DNA from: Sphingobacteriaceae bacterium
Lineage (GTDB): Bacteria; Bacteroidota; Bacteroidia; Sphingobacteriales; Sphingobacteriaceae
Length of the DNA stretch: 32,850 nt
Direction: 5' to 3'
Assembly (NCBI GenBank): GCA_947479815.1
Contig: CANKAT010000033.1
Span: 1-32,850, forward strand
Shown piece after piece: positions 26,092-32,349 of this stretch (position 1 is its first letter; every line of letters starts with the position of its first letter). Position numbers and translations under genes: made by a program. The notes below the pieces were generated by a model, which saw nothing but the letters and a program-made list of their open reading frames with translations, did not search any database and was not told where the DNA came from.

Positions 26092-26321
26092 GATTTTTAA
26101 TAATTATTTTCTCTTATTGATTTCCTGCTATTAAATTTATGGAGAATTCGCTAAATGGCTATTTTTTTTGTTTTTAATTAAAATATCCAAAATACAATTT
26201 ATTCGTTCAATTTTAATCCTTTATTGTTTTCAATAGTCAGAACAATATATAACATGCAAACCATGATCAAACAGGTAATGAAACATTTCTATCTGCAAGA
26301 ATATAGGTATTATGAAATAAC

Positions 26322-26353
26322 AAAAAAAGACAGGTGTGATCCTGTCTTTTTTT
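26322..26353. terminator. Bidirectional intrinsic terminator
   Basis: AAAAAAAGACAGG (26322-26334), loop TGTGAT and CCTGTCTTTTTTT (26341-26353) form a perfect 13-bp hairpin with an A run on one side and a T run on the other. It serves the five-gene minus-strand operon ending at 26379. Confidence 0.9.
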
Positions 26354-26378
26354 GATTAACCATGGAGAACGGTTTAAC

Positions 26379-27608
26379 TTATTTAAACTTGAGGTTTAAA
26401 GAAACCACATCAGAAAGCAAACTGGTTGATCTCACATAATGCCCATATCTTAATTCAACCATATTTAATCGCTGCACTCCAAAAACACCTTTAGGAGGAG
26501 TGAGGCGGATTCCAGTTCCAAAAAAATCGCTACTTAAGCTAGATAGATCATAATCGCTCGTAAAATAGGTTGCGGTAGGATTATGTTGTCCGTAGCTTGC
26601 AAAATATTTCGTTCCGCTTTGATTATTATAGCGGTAAAACGGACTTATAGAAAAGAATGGACTTATTTTAGTAGGGATCTCTAGCTCAGCGGTATGTGCT
26701 TTTAAACCCCAATCATCCTGATAATAGCGGTAAAAGGTTCGTATGATAAATTGGTCATTCAGGAAGTAATTCAATCGTAGACCAATGGGTAGTTTAAAAC
26801 GATTATCCGGAAGATTTTCAGATTTTACTGTGCCATTAGTAAAATAACTACGCTGGTATTTTGTAGCAAGTAAACCGTGTTGATAGGCTGGTTCTATGAT
26901 CAACATGGCCTGAAGCTGTTGATTTATGACCTGTGAAATGGAAAATGAACTATTGAAGGAGTTCCTTGGACTCAAAGGACCCCTGTTATCATCGTCGTCT
27001 CTACGTCTGGCGCTAAATGTTCTCAATTCAATTGGAAGTATGACTGACCATTTATCAAGGAATGTCTGAAGCTTAAAATCAAACTGAGTATTTTTATTTT
27101 TAGATAAACGAGTTAAATTAAAAGCTGCTCCAATGGATGTATAATCATATTCATACGAGTACGAACCTGAGAAACCATACGAATTTCCGGTTTTTTCATT
27201 TGATTTTGTCCAATTTAAGGATGGGTAAACTCGTGTATCTTGCATGGATGCCGATGAGATACTATACGGGTCTATCTTATCAGAGGATGCAGAGGTATAA
27301 TGATCAACGCCAATTTCAAAAGTGAATGTATTTTTTTTACCCCACTTATCGAATTTTGAGATCTGCAGGTCAAATGTGTTGGCGATATCACTTAGCTTTT
27401 CAGTTCCAATTCCTCCGGTAACCGCTGAATTATTACCGTCTTGATGATAATAGGCGGATACAATATTAACCTCATCCACATGAAGTTTTCTAGACTGGTA
27501 GTTTGTGCTGTCATTTGCTGCAGAGGTTGTCTGCTTTGTATTTGTTTGGGAAAAGCTGTTTAATATTCCCAGATATAACACAAAAACAAATAGGTATATT
27601 CTTCTCAT
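26379..27608 (-). CDS. DUF3570 outer-membrane beta-barrel protein
   Basis: A 409-aa exported protein. After the signal peptide (cleavage near NSFSQ, residue ~21) the sequence starts KLHVDEVNIVSAYYHQDGNN, typical of DUF3570. The rest is alternating amphipathic strands (for example NTFTFEIGVDHYTSASSD) with SAxxxDTRVYPSLNW, ending in VVSLNLKFK with a terminal aromatic, a beta-barrel signature. It is the last gene of a tight operon with DUF4266, ApbE, thioredoxin-like and Rieske genes. By family knowledge DUF3570 and DUF4266 genes commonly co-occur. A role as outer-membrane component of a redox system is inference. Confidence 0.85.
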   Translation of the reverse strand: MRRIYLFVFVLYLGILNSFSQTNTKQTTSAANDSTNYQSRKLHVDEVNIVSAYYHQDGNNSAVTGGIGTEKLSDIANTFDLQISKFDKWGKKNTFTFEIGVDHYTSASSDKIDPYSISSASMQDTRVYPSLNWTKSNEKTGNSYGFSGSYSYEYDYTSIGAAFNLTRLSKNKNTQFDFKLQTFLDKWSVILPIELRTFSARRRDDDDNRGPLSPRNSFNSSFSISQVINQQLQAMLIIEPAYQHGLLATKYQRSYFTNGTVKSENLPDNRFKLPIGLRLNYFLNDQFIIRTFYRYYQDDWGLKAHTAELEIPTKISPFFSISPFYRYNNQSGTKYFASYGQHNPTATYFTSDYDLSSLSSDFFGTGIRLTPPKGVFGVQRLNMVELRYGHYVRSTSLLSDVVSLNLKFK

Positions 27609-27624
27609 TTTCTTTTTTCAAAAA

Positions 27625-27855
27625 TTAATTACAGCCACAACCACCACCACTTTTACCGCCATTTGAGCCAGAAGCACCTTCACGATATAATTGGAAACTT
27701 TGTTCGAACTTTTGGATCTTTCTGGAGGTTAATGCCATCTCTGAATCGTTTAATTTATTTTTCTGATAAGATTTGACTGTGCTGCAGGAACATAAAATGC
27801 TTATTCCTGATATCCCAAGAAGAAAGATTCTTGTTAATTTGTTTATTGATTTCAT
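27625..27855 (-). CDS. DUF4266 lipoprotein with Cys-rich tail
   Basis: A 76-aa lipoprotein. The signal ends in a lipobox LCSC with acylated Cys24. The mature ~52 residues have a helical stretch with NDSEMALTSRKIQKFEQSF, then a flexible Gly/Ser linker and the terminal motif GGGCGCN. This layout is characteristic of DUF4266. The terminal Cys-Gly-Cys could bind metal, be modified or form a disulfide; none of this can be decided from sequence. It lies 1 bp from apbE and 16 bp from DUF3570, so it is almost certainly co-expressed with both. Confidence 0.85.
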   Translation of the reverse strand: MKSINKLTRIFLLGISGISILCSCSTVKSYQKNKLNDSEMALTSRKIQKFEQSFQLYREGASGSNGGKSGGGCGCN

Positions 27856-27856
27856 A

Positions 27857-28792
27857 TTATTCCTTTATAATGATGTTTTTAGAGGTATATAGTTTGTCAT
27901 GATCGTCTATGATCACACATTCCACGTGTTTTAGCTGATTTATAAGGTTTAATCCAATTTTAACTCCCATAACTACCACTGGAGTTGCTAAAGCATCAGC
28001 AAGTTCTGCGCTAGGACATATAATACTGACACTTTTTATACCGCTTACTGGCAAGCCGGTTTTGGGGTCAATAGTATGCGAATAACGTTTGCCATCAATA
28101 ATTACAAACTTTTCATAATTACCAGAGGTAGCAATGGCCATATTACTGATATTTAAAGAAGAAAATGGCCGACCACTTTGGTCTGGATCAGCAATTCCAA
28201 TGGTCCATGCTGAACCATTTAATTGTTCTCCCCAGGTGATTAGGTCGCCGGCAGCATTTACAATTCCGCTTTTAATACCCAAATTTTGAAGAATTTGTTT
28301 GGCCTTGTCTGCTGCATAGCCTTTGCCTATACCTCCAAAACCAATTCGCATTCCTTTATTTTTTAACATGACAGTACATTCTTCATCATTGATCAGCACA
28401 TGGCGATAATTGATCAGATCTACAGTTTTTAAGGCCGTTTCTTGATCTGGCAGGCTAGTCATTTTCAGGTCAAAGTTCCATAGGCTTTTGTCGATAGATC
28501 CATAGGTAATATCAAAAGCACCATCTGTAATTGTTGAAATCTTATTAGCCCTGCTAATTAACTGTAATACTTCTCTATCTATTTTTACCGGTCTAATACC
28601 GGCTTGATCATTTATTTCATTAGCCTGACTACTTTTCTTAAACGTTGAAAGTAATTCTTCGATCCTTTTTACTTCAGCTATTGCCTGTTCAATCGCCTGG
28701 TTTCCAATTTCTTTATTCTCAGCAATTACAGTGAACTCAAAACGGTTACCCATTAATTTAAGAACACTTTTACTCAAAATTTGAGAATGCAT
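27857..28792 (-). CDS. apbE: FAD:protein FMN transferase (ApbE family)
   Basis: A 311-aa Mg-dependent enzyme that splits FAD and attaches FMN to a Thr or Ser of target proteins. Family motifs are present: FGGIGKGYAAD (152-162), VNAAGDL (178-184), SGNYEKF (223-229), SHTIDPKTGLPVSG (238-251), and ADALATPV with the metal ligands (265-272). Unlike most bacterial ApbE proteins it has no signal peptide or lipobox: MHSQILSKSVLKLMGNRFEF begins directly at the domain, and no in-frame upstream start exists before a stop. This predicts a cytoplasmic enzyme, although its operon partners are exported. It starts 4 bp after the thioredoxin-like gene. Confidence 0.93.
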   Translation of the reverse strand: MHSQILSKSVLKLMGNRFEFTVIAENKEIGNQAIEQAIAEVKRIEELLSTFKKSSQANEINDQAGIRPVKIDREVLQLISRANKISTITDGAFDITYGSIDKSLWNFDLKMTSLPDQETALKTVDLINYRHVLINDEECTVMLKNKGMRIGFGGIGKGYAADKAKQILQNLGIKSGIVNAAGDLITWGEQLNGSAWTIGIADPDQSGRPFSSLNISNMAIATSGNYEKFVIIDGKRYSHTIDPKTGLPVSGIKSVSIICPSAELADALATPVVVMGVKIGLNLINQLKHVECVIIDDHDKLYTSKNIIIKE

Positions 28793-28796
28793 TTTT

Positions 28797-29231
28797 CTAT
28801 CTTTTTTGACTGAGAAGCTCTAATTGCTGGACAAATTGAGCAGCATTCTCTTTTGGGAGTCCATCCCATGTTTTTAAAATCTTACCCTCACTATTTACGA
28901 GCAATGTAAATGGGAATTTTCCATCTTTATTATAACGCTCTGCAAGCATTTCATTTAATTTAACCTGAGCTTCAGGGAGCTTATTTTTCTTTTGTCTTGG
29001 AAAATCAGCTCTAACCAATAATAGTTTTTCTGAAGCAAATTTTTCAAAAACTTCAGTTACGAAGATTTCATTTTTAAGCCTGATGCATGGACCGCACCAA
29101 TCAGATCCCGAAAAATTAATTAGGATCAATTTATTTGATTCTTTAGCAATTTTTGCAGTTTCATTGAAATTGCCTGACCAGATAGCTGGTGTAGGAATCA
29201 ATCCAATTAATAAAAAAAATATAAATCTCAT
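28797..29231 (-). CDS. Exported thioredoxin-like protein
   Basis: A 144-aa protein with an N-terminal signal peptide (MRFIFFLLIGLIPTPAIWSG) and a thioredoxin fold. The redox site is Cys46-Gly-Pro-Cys49 in GSDWCGPCIRLKNEIF, and the cis-proline region is KFPFTLLVNSEGK. It resembles the DUF255/thioredoxin-7-type periplasmic proteins. Its ATG overlaps the stop of the Rieske gene (ATGA), so translation is coupled. In this operon it may keep cysteines of DUF4266 or others reduced, which is inference. Confidence 0.88.
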   Translation of the reverse strand: MRFIFFLLIGLIPTPAIWSGNFNETAKIAKESNKLILINFSGSDWCGPCIRLKNEIFVTEVFEKFASEKLLLVRADFPRQKKNKLPEAQVKLNEMLAERYNKDGKFPFTLLVNSEGKILKTWDGLPKENAAQFVQQLELLSQKR

Positions 29232-29656
29232 CCGTATATTCTTAAGTTAGTTCCTGTTAATTCTGTTTGATAAACGTTCAATGGTCGGGTTGCTGGGCCA
29301 TTGCCTACTGCTCCGCTTTCTGAGAAAGTAGCACCGTGAGCGCTACAATAAAATTTATTAATAGAAGATTGGTAAGTTAAACTTACATTGGAGTGCGTAC
29401 AAGATCTTTGTACTGCAAAAAACACACCTAAGCTTTTTCTAACCACTATTACATCATTAGATATTAAAAATCCCCCATCACGAGTTAATGCAGAATTTGC
29501 TGCGGCATTCAGGTCAAGAGTTAAATTAACACTTGCTGGTGAGCCACCTTGGCCAGAAGATGGACTATCTGTACTTTTGGCACATCCTGCACAGTTCATT
29601 AGTGCAAAACTTGCTGCACTTATTCCCAAACTTGCAAAAAATTCTTTTCTATCCAT
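29228..29656 (-). CDS. Exported Rieske [2Fe-2S] protein
   Basis: A 142-aa protein. The N-terminus MDRKEFFASLGISAASFALM is a signal segment, Tat-like in sequence but without the twin arginine, followed by NCAGC (a weak lipobox). The Rieske domain has Cys86-x-His88 in SCTHSNVSL and Cys104-x-x-His107 in YCSAHGATF, with the usual ~15-residue spacing and GPATRPLNVY after it. The cluster ligands are complete, so it can transfer single electrons in the envelope. It is the first gene of the five-gene operon; neither a cytochrome b nor an oxygenase subunit is nearby, which separates it from bc1 complexes. Confidence 0.87.
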   Translation of the reverse strand: MDRKEFFASLGISAASFALMNCAGCAKSTDSPSSGQGGSPASVNLTLDLNAAANSALTRDGGFLISNDVIVVRKSLGVFFAVQRSCTHSNVSLTYQSSINKFYCSAHGATFSESGAVGNGPATRPLNVYQTELTGTNLRIYG

Positions 29657-30347: not shown

Positions 30348-30683
30348 ATGGATAATCATTATTATAATTCAAAAGACCTGGATAAATTTGGAAACATTGC
30401 TGAATACCAGAAAGAACTTGCAGATAAATTCTTTTCCTATTACGGTGAAGTATTTAAGGATAGCCATTTAACTGCGAAAGAAAAATCGCTTATTGCCCTT
30501 GCTGTTGCACATGCTGTACAATGCCCATATTGCATAGATGCATACAGCAGCGATGCCTATGAAAAGGGCTATAGTGAGGCACAGATGATGGAGGCTGTTC
30601 ATGTGGCATCAGCTATAAAAGGTGGAGCAGTACTTGTGCATGGTGTTCAAATGATGAACAAGGTCAAAGAAATTGGGATGTAA
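30348..30683 (+). CDS. AhpD/CMD-family protein, arsenosugar-cluster type
   Basis: A 111-aa carboxymuconolactone decarboxylase-fold protein. The redox pair is Cys59-Pro-Tyr-Cys62 in VAHAVQCPYCIDAYSSDAY, preceded by KEKSLIALAVAHA. The AhpD catalytic His four residues after the second Cys is replaced by Tyr66, as I recall for the arsenosugar-associated subfamily (TIGR04169), in which the first Cys is often selenocysteine; here it is an ordinary TGC Cys. It is followed after 8 bp by the radical SAM gene. The likely role is a peroxidase-like partner in that pathway; its biochemical function is not established to my knowledge. Confidence 0.85.
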   Translation: MDNHYYNSKDLDKFGNIAEYQKELADKFFSYYGEVFKDSHLTAKEKSLIALAVAHAVQCPYCIDAYSSDAYEKGYSEAQMMEAVHVASAIKGGAVLVHGVQMMNKVKEIGM

Positions 30684-30691
30684 TACCATTT

Positions 30692-31741
30692 ATGATTAAA
30701 TCACTCAAAGTTTTACAACATCCTCTTTCTGATTCTCTTAATCAGCTTGCGCTGCTAGAGCCTGATTTAGATTATTCTAAGTCTTCTTTTAAGGCCAGGC
30801 TTGATGAATTCGGACTGTTTCCACTGAGAACTTCAGCTCTTGAAATTTTCCAGATCAATTTGGGTAAGATGTGTAATCAGACCTGCAGACATTGCCATGT
30901 TGATGCTGGGCCAGACCGAAAAGAGATCATGAGTAGGCAAACCATGCAATTATGTCTTCAAGTTTTAAAAAACTCAGAAATTAAAACAGTGGATCTTACC
31001 GGAGGAGCGCCCGAATTGAACCCTGATTTTCGCTGGTTTGTTCAAGAAATAAGAAAATTGGGTAAGCATATCCTAGTTCGCTGTAATTTGACTATTATTT
31101 TGGCCAATAAGCGGTTTAATGATCTTCCCGAATTTTTTAAAGAGCATCAAGTTGAGGTTGTTTCATCTTTGCCAAGTTTTACCCAAGACCGAACAGATAG
31201 GCAAAGGGGTGATGGTGTTTTTGAAGATTCTATAAAAGCTTTGCACATGCTAAATGCTGTCGGATACGGACAGGAGGGAAGCGGATTGATTCTTAATCTT
31301 GTCTATAATCCTGCAGGAGCCTTTCTTCCACCATCTCAAATAGCTTTGGAGACAGAATATAAAAAAGAGTTGTCTGTTCGTTATGGTATTTTATTCAACC
31401 AGCTATTTGCAATTACCAATATGCCGATAAGCAGGTATTTAGACTATTTATTAACCTCAGGAAACTATGAAAGGTACATGGATAAACTGATATCTGCGTT
31501 TAACCCTACATCTGTCCAGAATCTCATGTGCCGTACTATGCTTTCTGTAGGCTGGGACGGATATTTGTATGATTGCGATTTTAATCAGATGCTTGACCTT
31601 AAAGTAAGCACTTCAAATAGCCAACATATTTCGAATTTTGATTTTGAGCTATTAAAAAATAGGGATATTGTAATAAAACAGCATTGTTTTGGATGTACTG
31701 CTGGCGAAGGATCTAGTTGCGGAGGAAGCCTTTCAGTTTAA
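30692..31741 (+). CDS. arsS: ArsS-like radical SAM/Cys-rich protein
   Basis: A 349-aa radical SAM enzyme. The 4Fe-4S motif is Cys61-x3-Cys65-x2-Cys68 (CNQTCRHCHVDAGPDRKE). VDLTGGAPELNP follows as the SAM-binding GGE-like motif. The C-terminal DUF3641-type region has MCRTMLSVGWDGYLYDCDF and ends with Cys332, Cys335 and Cys343 in CFGCTAGEGSSCGG. By family knowledge (TIGR04167, ArsS) such enzymes attach the deoxyadenosyl group to dimethylarsenite in arsenosugar synthesis. Neighbours on both sides match that cluster. The methyltransferase ArsM is not in the window. Assignment to arsenosugar chemistry is by family, not tested. Confidence 0.87.
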   Translation: MIKSLKVLQHPLSDSLNQLALLEPDLDYSKSSFKARLDEFGLFPLRTSALEIFQINLGKMCNQTCRHCHVDAGPDRKEIMSRQTMQLCLQVLKNSEIKTVDLTGGAPELNPDFRWFVQEIRKLGKHILVRCNLTIILANKRFNDLPEFFKEHQVEVVSSLPSFTQDRTDRQRGDGVFEDSIKALHMLNAVGYGQEGSGLILNLVYNPAGAFLPPSQIALETEYKKELSVRYGILFNQLFAITNMPISRYLDYLLTSGNYERYMDKLISAFNPTSVQNLMCRTMLSVGWDGYLYDCDFNQMLDLKVSTSNSQHISNFDFELLKNRDIVIKQHCFGCTAGEGSSCGGSLSV

Positions 31742-31743
31742 AT

Positions 31744-32349
31744 ATGACCATGCTTAGCTCAACTGCTTTGGTAATATTTGTGAGAAATCCAGTTTTAGGG
31801 CAAGTAAAAACACGTCTTGCAAAAGATATAGGTGATAAACGGGCTCTTGCAATTTATCTTCAATTACTTGATCATACCCTTGAAATTACCAGAAGCCTTA
31901 GTTTCAGAAAGTTTATTTATTATGCTGATGAAGTCAGTGATTATGATCTTTGGAGCGTTCCCGGCTATACTAAAAGAAAGCAAAACGGAAATGATCTTGG
32001 TGAACGCATGTTAAATTCATTCAAAGAGCTATTTGATCAGGGATTTACCCGGATTGTTATTATTGGCAGTGATTGTTTACAGTTGAAAACAAATACCCTG
32101 GAGCAGGCTGTATCTTTACTGGAATCAAATGCTGCAGTTTTAGGTCCAGCCAGTGATGGTGGTTATTACTTACTTGGCTTAACTAAATTGTATCCAGATT
32201 TGTTTGTTAATAAACCATGGAGCACTGACCAGGTTTTTACTAAAACGATTGATGATTTCAATAATCAGGGTATTTCGTATGCCTTATTAGAAGAGCTCAG
32301 TGATATTGATGATATCACAGACCTTGATGAAAATGGGATTTCAATTTGA
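31744..32349 (+). CDS. TIGR04282-type glycosyltransferase (DUF2064)
   Basis: A 201-aa protein of the CofC/GT-A-like DUF2064 family that accompanies ArsS-like genes. The open frame extends upstream to a TTG inside arsS, but ATG 31744 lies 2 bp after the arsS stop and gives MTMLSSTALVIFVRNPVLGQ; ATG 31750 is an alternative. Motifs are VKTRLAKDIGDKRAL (nucleotide-binding loop), IIGSDCLQL (metal-binding Asp) and LGPASDGGYYLLGL. By family knowledge it is proposed to act as a glycosyltransferase in arsenosugar formation. It is the last gene of the cluster; no terminator is evident after it. Confidence 0.85.
   Translation: MTMLSSTALVIFVRNPVLGQVKTRLAKDIGDKRALAIYLQLLDHTLEITRSLSFRKFIYYADEVSDYDLWSVPGYTKRKQNGNDLGERMLNSFKELFDQGFTRIVIIGSDCLQLKTNTLEQAVSLLESNAAVLGPASDGGYYLLGLTKLYPDLFVNKPWSTDQVFTKTIDDFNNQGISYALLEELSDIDDITDLDENGISI

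Follow-up and report, generated by a model that had tools for sequence, protein, structure and literature searches.

What might an operon do that places a Rieske iron-sulfur protein next to a thioredoxin-like protein, a flavin transferase, a small lipoprotein and a protein of the DUF3570 family? We address this question for five genes of a Sphingobacteriaceae bacterium (NCBI GenBank assembly GCA_947479815.1; genome of 3.2 Mb), located on a stretch of 32,850 nucleotides of contig CANKAT010000033.1 that we refer to as the window. The operon belongs to a known kind of flavinylation cluster, in a variant form that carries a Rieske gene and lacks DsbD; this membership is firm. With regard to its function, we give roughly even chances to a haem-free electron relay in the envelope, in which flavin mononucleotides (FMNs) on a DUF3570 barrel would pass electrons to an outside acceptor and the Rieske protein would be optional. 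A previous interpretation of the same DNA, made from the letters alone (the sequence-only reading), had proposed an envelope electron-transfer or cofactor-assembly machine. The electron-transfer part agrees with published work and with our survey, while the assembly part does not hold, DUF3570 itself being the likely target of the transferase.

The operon belongs to a published class of flavinylation clusters

The DUF3570 protein of Chlorobium luteolum is flavinylated at two [S/T]GA[S/T] motifs by its cognate ApbE, a flavin adenine dinucleotide (FAD):protein FMN transferase (Meheust et al. 2021, PMC8238504), and in the passages of this paper that we draw on, covalent FMN on DUF3570 is demonstrated for the C. 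luteolum protein only. DUF3570, for which the sequence-only reading knew of no assigned function, is therefore a published ApbE substrate with two FMN sites. The same passages describe clusters of ApbE, DUF3570, a PF13899 thioredoxin and DUF4266, namely 285 clusters with DsbD, most of them carrying these genes, and 316 without DsbD; they suggest that the CXC motif of DUF4266 undergoes redox cycling and that VIT1, present in 25 clusters, may take part in the assimilation of iron, and they leave the function of DUF3570 open. Measured against this description, the window operon has ApbE and DUF3570 together with DUF4266 alone between them, and both the PF13899 thioredoxin and a PF14086 DUF4266 with a CXC tail are present. 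A clustered DsbD, which the strict DsbD flavinylation system requires, is missing, so that the operon represents the DsbD-less form.

We surveyed the surroundings of DUF4266 genes; a lack of conserved co-occurrence was one outcome that the sequence-only reading had named as refuting the grouping. DUF4266 is common in Bacteroidota: of 395 genomes sampled from the phylum, 113 encode PF14086, as do 74/251 genomes of the window's family. Our main set comprised 121 DUF4266 loci (the window and 120 fetched places, each with at least 6 kb of sequence), in which the cluster genes were located by jackhmmer seeded with the window proteins. Pieces of 3 kb (L003-L032, L093-L122) were excluded from the counts unless the place was fetched again, and from the phylum search just six places, of family f18, were taken in full. 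The loci share ancestry, and all p-values are indicative only. DUF3570 shares the stretch with DUF4266 in 120 of the 121 loci, ApbE in 115 and the thioredoxin-like gene in 110. Rieske matches occur in 42, including one protein of 517 amino acids and three fragments. The order thioredoxin-ApbE-DUF4266-DUF3570, with or without a Rieske gene ahead of it, is kept in 93/121 loci, 37 of them with Rieske and 56 without. The 80 top-ranking of more than 594 stretches made up a second set, which was picked by similarity to the DUF4266 alignment and partly overlaps the main set. Here, DUF4266 was present in 79 stretches, accompanied by DUF3570 in 79, ApbE in 75 and thioredoxin in 72. Taken together, the grouping of DUF4266, DUF3570, ApbE and thioredoxin is far beyond chance.

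Both predicted FMN sites lie in one loop of a modelled barrel

A structural model of DUF3570, built from 60 sequences, shows a signal helix and strands that were merged by hand into 16 (mean predicted local distance difference test, pLDDT, 86.3; predicted template modelling score, pTM, 0.81). The model displays the features expected of an outer-membrane barrel: a signal peptide, a closed barrel with an even number of strands, long outer loops and short turns. By VIA-align, it gave Z scores of 15.8-21.4 to 50 listed outer-membrane barrel entries, e.g., BamA, CymA and OmpC, and it aligns from N to C terminus with OmpC/OmpF-type barrels. An outer-membrane barrel had also been named in the sequence-only reading. 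A sequence search against solved structures returned only two streptavidin matches (E about 0.35); the fold is taken from the model. With the N-terminus placed in the periplasm, the odd-numbered loops face outward; their mean length is 14.5 residues, whereas the turns average 6.0 (p about 0.03 by permutation), which is the pattern expected for outer-membrane proteins. The most conserved loop is L1 (GNNSAVTGGIGTEK; conservation 0.79); L5 (0.71) and L7 (0.68) are also well conserved.

Residues 105-123 form the loop that joins strand 3 to strand 4, and both predicted FMN sites fall inside it; residues 109-111 and 116-120 of this loop have a pLDDT under 50. T105 and S118 align with the FMN sites of the family. 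At the first site, residue 105 is T or S and A107 and S108 are invariant in all 60 sequences, with D102 in 59/60. The relaxed motif [ST][SG]A[ST] is common to most aligned Bacteroidota sequences at this position (54/60, the remaining six reading TAAS), and by column it is found at the second site in 39/60; in Mucilaginibacter-type proteins, the second site is shifted or degenerate. These results suggest that both FMNs would be carried by a single outward-facing loop of an outer-membrane barrel, and by analogy to the C. luteolum protein, DUF3570 is the likely target of the ApbE encoded in this operon. Since 59 of the 60 sequences have no cysteine past residue 25, the thiols of the system sit on the partner proteins. 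Separately, an insert in the loop between the two sites of some Flavobacterium-type proteins (L044, L047, L048, L049) carries an additional TGAS, possibly a third site.

The ApbE of the cluster lacks an export signal

The ApbE protein of the window contains the segments that we take to be typical of this family. It shows no hydrophobic leader, even if the frame is read back to the upstream stop. We scored all cluster ApbEs by a crude hydrophobicity threshold ahead of the domain start and found no leader in 95 of 115, including 64/64 from the window's family and 5/5 from f18. A leader is present in the other 20 (13/25 of f4, 3/4 of f9, 2/2 of f16, the single f5 protein and one odd f2 open reading frame, ORF), and two f35 proteins and one f9 protein just under the threshold look leader-like by eye. 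On a quick tree of 106 ApbEs, which excludes families f16, f18 and f35 and leaves 34/103 inner branches open, the leader state changes three times. Because the cluster ApbE has no export signal while its presumed substrate is exported, these data suggest, as the simplest explanation, that FMN is attached to DUF3570 before export. If true, the leaderless ApbE would serve an exported barrel by adding the cofactor prior to secretion. A 2025 review describes, in the passages covered here, a cytosolic ApbE of Klebsiella pneumoniae that serves a soluble fumarate reductase of the cytosol (PMC12052999). This enzyme likewise has no export signal, but its substrate stays in the cytosol whereas that of the window is exported; the cytosolic ApbEs covered there serve cytosolic or fused substrates.

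As an alternative, DUF3570 could be flavinylated in the periplasm by a second ApbE of the same genome, leaving the leaderless enzyme of the operon to act on something else. This second enzyme has a lipoprotein-like leader (by eye), and no FMN_bind protein, the candidate partner for it, was found in the source genome. We nevertheless consider this explanation quite improbable, as an ApbE shares the stretch with DUF4266 in 115/121 loci, and as the cluster enzymes of f4 and f9 that do carry a leader seem to serve the same substrate from the other side of the membrane. The second ApbE gene (L002, contig C15) adjoins what seems by eye to be a Gfo/Idh-type oxidoreductase gene.

The Rieske gene is an accessory first gene

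By its PF00355 match and its CxH..CxxH ligands, the first gene product belongs to the Rieske superfamily; 37/38 full-length copies retain these ligands, which are degenerate in the f9 copy. The extra cysteine of box I in bc1/b6f-type proteins is absent from all 38, so the protein is not of this type. The protein begins with a conserved MDRKEF-type sequence, and its Cys22 resembles a lipobox cysteine by eye; RK takes the place of the twin-arginine RR in at least 34/38 copies, and TatC is present in the genome. The nearest solved structure is the cytochrome b6f-type Rieske protein 5cxm (E=2.3e-11), which shares the Rieske domain and the ligand spacing but differs in having the box I disulfide cysteine, whereas the window protein is by eye a lipoprotein, encoded in a genome without cytochrome b561. 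A part in a bc1-like complex was rejected, given the lack of the extra box I cysteine and of cytochrome b561. Without the bc1-type disulfide, a low potential is expected for this protein.

A full-length Rieske gene stands at the head of 38 of 117 testable loci (f1, 32; f4, 3; f10, 2; f9, 1), after four loci with under 2.2 kb of upstream sequence were dropped. In the set of 80 stretches it was seen in 4 of the 75 with enough upstream sequence, a lower share that is partly due to sampling, this set being rich in Chryseobacterium and Flavobacterium. On the ApbE tree, Rieske presence changes 19 times, compared to a mean of 31 after shuffling, and 10 of these changes are forced by well-supported branches. 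The suggestion of the sequence-only reading that the addition of Rieske may be lineage-specific was not upheld: a novelty of one lineage was rejected on the basis of the four families and the 19 changes. Across 37 loci, Rieske distances correlate with those of DUF3570 (0.874), thioredoxin (0.861), ApbE (0.731) and DUF4266 (0.705), each above 1000 permutations. As judged from the tree and these distances, the Rieske gene has been gained or lost repeatedly and co-diverges with the other cluster genes. A search across the window's family placed all 35 best Rieske matches (E at most 2.6e-58; 11 of them were in the search model) within 3 kb of a DUF4266 match. Lower-ranked copies occur in other settings, among them seven at E 1e-52 to 1e-45 without a DUF4266 neighbor, except for a stop-bearing copy in genome G631.

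Could the Rieske gene be a hitch-hiker without any role in the relay? It is missing from most clusters, and degenerate copies exist: three fragments at the same spot (L171, L172, L174), a copy with two stops at the head of a second cluster in G631 (contig C26), and, in the close sister G518 (C131), just a stop-bearing remnant. In these clusters, all taken as assembled, the other genes were found. On the other hand, all 38 full-length Rieske genes lie directly 5' of the thioredoxin gene, in 32 cases no more than 23 bp away, and the co-divergence (r 0.71-0.87) exceeds every one of the 1000 permutations. Furthermore, in genome G452 the Rieske gene travels with thioredoxin and ApbE, downstream of a flavohaemoglobin-like gene (globin and NAD-binding domains; L191) and apart from the DUF4266-DUF3570 pair, which lies near a contig end (L162). 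We assign a small chance to the passenger explanation.

The Rieske family also recurs beside a second barrel type. A paralogous Rieske lipoprotein is found in another type of cluster together with YceI and DUF5777 ('membrane bound beta barrel'). We examined ten such loci and found DUF5777 within about 0.7 kb in eight (L192, L193, L194, L195, L197, L198, L200, L205) and YceI nearby in nine; the one in the genome of the window (L186) has YceI only. A literature search among open-licence papers returned a single paper for each of DUF4266 and DUF3570, none on DUF5777, none joining Rieske with ApbE and flavinylation, and none on PetC3 together with Rieske and redox potential. The words Rieske, barrel and cytosolic ApbE do not occur in the main text of PMC8238504, while Rieske genes may already stand in its supplementary tables. 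In the passages covered here, PMC11334425 names models for proteins of the FMN-bind, NqrB/RnfD, DUF2271, flavodoxin and FMN-reductase types, with DUF3570 not among them, and a word search of it gave zero occurrences of thioredoxin, Rieske and DsbD.

DUF4266 and the thioredoxin-like protein form a putative dithiol chain

As proposed in the sequence-only reading, DUF4266 is a small lipoprotein ending in CGCN: its Cys24, a lipobox cysteine by eye, is invariant among 47 aligned sequences, and the CGC tail is present in 122/122 matches. The structural model is weak (mean pLDDT 62, pTM 0.26) and consists of the signal helix, two short helices and the tail; residues 62-68 and 70-76 have a pLDDT under 50. 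We rejected the idea that DUF4266 is a further ApbE substrate by way of its conserved, motif-like REGASG stretch, since 20 of the 122 sequences have no S or T there (REAAAG 11, REGAGG 4, REGAAG 2, REAAVG 2, REGAVP 1). The thioredoxin-like protein has WCxPC in all 110 matches under 230 amino acids, 78 of them with WCGPC. A CGC peptide has a standard potential (E0') of -167 mV, near that of protein disulfide isomerase (PDI) at -180, and mimics a disulfide isomerase, according to the passage of PMC4316792 that cites Woycechowsky and Raines (2003) for the potential. The CGC tail in the model fits a flexible dithiol arm that may link thioredoxin and flavin.

These features also fit a different function, in which the thioredoxin-like protein and DUF4266 act on envelope disulfides for periplasmic thiol and redox maintenance, with FMN-carrying DUF3570 as oxidant or sink and the electrons staying in the cell. 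The best NCBIfam match of the thioredoxin-like protein is indeed the disulfide reductase DsbH (71.5 bits, below the cut-off of 190), and the mimicry of a disulfide isomerase by the CGC peptide points in the same direction. But the position of both FMN sites in a predicted outward loop and the recurrence of metal-transport neighbors (see below) speak against it, and we rate thiol maintenance as having a slim chance of being correct.

Gene organization and recurrent neighbors

The five genes are spaced by -4, 4, 1 and 16 bp (Table 1), and directly 3' of the DUF3570 gene, a terminator-like site (26354-26321, minus) combines 14 pairs with a T run. The remaining four sites of the terminator scan have just 5 or 6 pairs, and shuffled sequence yields 3.0 sites by chance. 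The coordinates and the stem agree with the sequence-only reading, which had described a close-packed minus-strand operon closed by a strong terminator; its five family assignments stand as well, all Pfam matches lying above the cut-offs. Its count of four exported products fits the leaders of the Rieske, thioredoxin-like, DUF4266 and DUF3570 proteins, judged by eye, with ApbE as the exception, judged by a hydrophobicity test. Beside the operon lie divergent arsenosugar-associated genes (30348-32349, plus), encoding an AhpD-like protein (TIGR04169), an ArsS radical SAM protein (TIGR04167) and a glycosyltransferase (TIGR04282).

Table 1. Genes, predicted functional residues and terminator of the operon in window coordinates.
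Feature	Coordinates	Strand	Basis
Rieske [2Fe-2S] lipoprotein gene, accessory first gene	29228..29656	minus	142 aa; PF00355, E=1.2e-11
Rieske cluster ligands C86-x-H88 ... C104-x-x-H107	29336..29401	minus	CxH..CxxH in 37/38 full-length relatives
Exported thioredoxin-like protein	28797..29231	minus	144 aa; Thioredoxin_7 PF13899, E=7.3e-9; leader by eye
Thioredoxin active site CGPC, residues 46-49	29085..29096	minus	translation
ApbE, FAD:protein FMN transferase, without export signal	27857..28792	minus	311 aa; PF02424, E=9.1e-81
DUF4266 small lipoprotein	27625..27855	minus	76 aa; PF14086, E=5.6e-19
DUF4266 C-terminal CGCN tail, C73-N76	27628..27639	minus	CGC tail in 122/122 matches
DUF3570, predicted outer-membrane beta-barrel, ApbE substrate family	26379..27608	minus	409 aa; PF12094, E=4.3e-26
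First predicted FMN site, T105 in TSAS	27285..27296	minus	alignment of 60; first residue past strand 3
Second predicted FMN site, S118 in SSAS	27246..27257	minus	alignment of 60; same loop, ahead of strand 4
Intrinsic terminator closing the operon	26321..26354	minus	14-pair stem and T tract

In four more distant families, the place upstream of the cluster is often taken by ORFs with CXXCH motifs. A same-strand CXXCH ORF lies within 3.5 kb in 9/12 loci of f16, f18, f20 and f35 compared to 1/109 elsewhere, and one protein with 11 CXXCH motifs and a cytochrome c7 match is encoded directly 5' of the thioredoxin gene. Not all of these ORFs need be partners, because those of f18 are 200-300 bases away and some hold a single CXXCH. 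The pattern suggests that a one-electron carrier of either type, Rieske or CXXCH (cytochrome c-like), may be placed at the head of the cluster. Two further arrangements were seen. At L085 (3663-5936), a DUF4266-DUF3570 pair has no ApbE or thioredoxin gene in the stretch, and the protein encoded upstream contains a hydrazine-synthase-alpha middle domain and two CXXCH motifs; L086 resembles it in layout, the domain scan having covered the L085 protein. In L039, L040, L077 and L081 (f16, f35), a NusG_II-domain protein with a Tat-like start (one member scanned) is encoded between DUF3570 and ApbE.

Other neighbors point to metals, although not in the cluster of this genome itself. A VIT1 ORF group occurs in the flanks of 31/121 loci (8 genera), a cytochrome b561 group in 30/121 (6 genera, all f1) and CusA-like pumps in 20/121, and two-component genes adjoin the operon in many of the loci listed. 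For the VIT1, cytochrome b561 and CusB groups, the name comes from a single scanned member per group; the CusA and two-component genes were identified by eye. Among 15 same-family stretches taken around other Rieske genes, which include the half cluster of G452, none carries a VIT1 or cytochrome b561 label of this kind, whereas the f1 clusters have VIT1 in 20/67 and cytochrome b561 in 30/67 (Fisher p 0.009 and 0.0004 against 0/15, kinship ignored).

Such neighbors also fit reductive import by DUF3570, in which the barrel would channel a metal chelate and its FMNs would reduce and release the metal at the barrel mouth, resulting in metal assimilation and not electron export. The barrel fold with its porin-like matches, the well-conserved outward loops L1, L5 and L7 and the VIT1-type ORFs, also noted in the published clusters (PMC8238504, passages cited above), all agree with this explanation. 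Against it, the conserved set contains no other transport gene among those listed, and we consider import unlikely, if somewhat less so than the other alternatives to the relay.

A proposed electron relay and its relation to known systems

In the haem-free relay that we favor, the precursor of DUF3570 would receive its FMN from ApbE prior to export or in the course of it, because ApbE could no longer reach the strand 3-4 loop after insertion of the barrel into the outer membrane. The entry point for electrons would be the exported thioredoxin-like CGPC protein, for which a DsbD encoded at another place in the genome is the probable reductant. The CGC dithiol on the flexible, glycine-rich tail of the lipoprotein DUF4266 would take the electrons over and hand them to the FMNs of the barrel, and the final acceptor would lie at the outer membrane or beyond it, ferric iron or another oxidized metal being the most likely candidate. 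As an optional one-electron carrier, the Rieske lipoprotein would add or alternate an input; in some more distant families, CXXCH genes are found at the same end.

A number of observations weigh against this relay. The direction of electron flow and the acceptor, possibly ferric iron, are what we infer, and the chain of CGC tail and thioredoxin could run as an oxidant. Covalent FMN on this particular DUF3570, like the relay itself, is a computational prediction. Both flavinylation motifs of the window are non-canonical, with S in place of G (TSAS, SSAS), and at the second site 21/60 sequences deviate from the relaxed motif by column, in part due to an alignment shift. The outward orientation of the loop depends on parity and on strands merged by hand, and Foldseek TM-scores (template modelling scores) for the barrel are low (0.32-0.44 by query among the 50 matches listed); therefore, we do not claim any specific barrel family. 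The window (contig C33) has no DsbD, and the two DsbD_TM matches of the genome, a 676-amino-acid DsbD-like protein and a weak frame of 241 amino acids, are on contigs C11 and C15. Cytochrome b561 is absent from the genome and its single VIT1 is on another contig, while the leader-bearing second ApbE could carry out the flavinylation. Finally, 79/117 testable clusters have no full-length Rieske gene (76 lack it altogether, 3 hold a fragment), and the relay must therefore run without it in these cases.

A more detailed version would make DUF3570 a haem-free conduit: the leaderless ApbE would attach the FMN of its outward loop in the cytosol, the flavinylated protein would pass Sec and Bam, the CGC tail of DUF4266 would feed it from inside by swinging into the barrel, and Rieske lipoproteins and cytochromes would be interchangeable one-electron inputs. 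We put this forward tentatively, and as a whole it is rather doubtful. The outward FMNs and their loading before export are suggested by our models and appear in none of the literature passages covered here. With both FMNs on an outward loop, DUF3570 would acquire a concrete and testable role, flavin-based electron transfer at the surface without haem, and the Rieske variant and the CXXCH genes would mark the end at which a one-electron carrier may plug in.

Porin-cytochrome conduits of the MtrCAB type consist of an outer-membrane barrel and multihaem cytochromes that carry electrons across the outer membrane. The window system would resemble them in having a barrel with a redox cofactor, but would use covalent FMN and dithiols in place of multihaem cytochromes, a likeness of function only. 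Flavin-based extracellular electron transfer by FmnB/PplA of Listeria shares with it a secreted electron carrier loaded by an ApbE-type enzyme, but it operates in a Gram-positive organism and its substrate is not known to be a barrel. In that system, the FMN-carrying secreted protein passes electrons to outside acceptors, as described in the review cited above (PMC12052999). Closest are the published ApbE/DUF3570/thioredoxin/DUF4266 clusters. As far as the passages used here describe them (PMC8238504), they share these four genes with the window operon, their DUF3570 has two S/T sites, and their DUF4266 ends in a CXC tail; the window operon differs from them by its extra Rieske first gene, the change from G to S in both motifs, the leaderless ApbE and the lack of a clustered DsbD.

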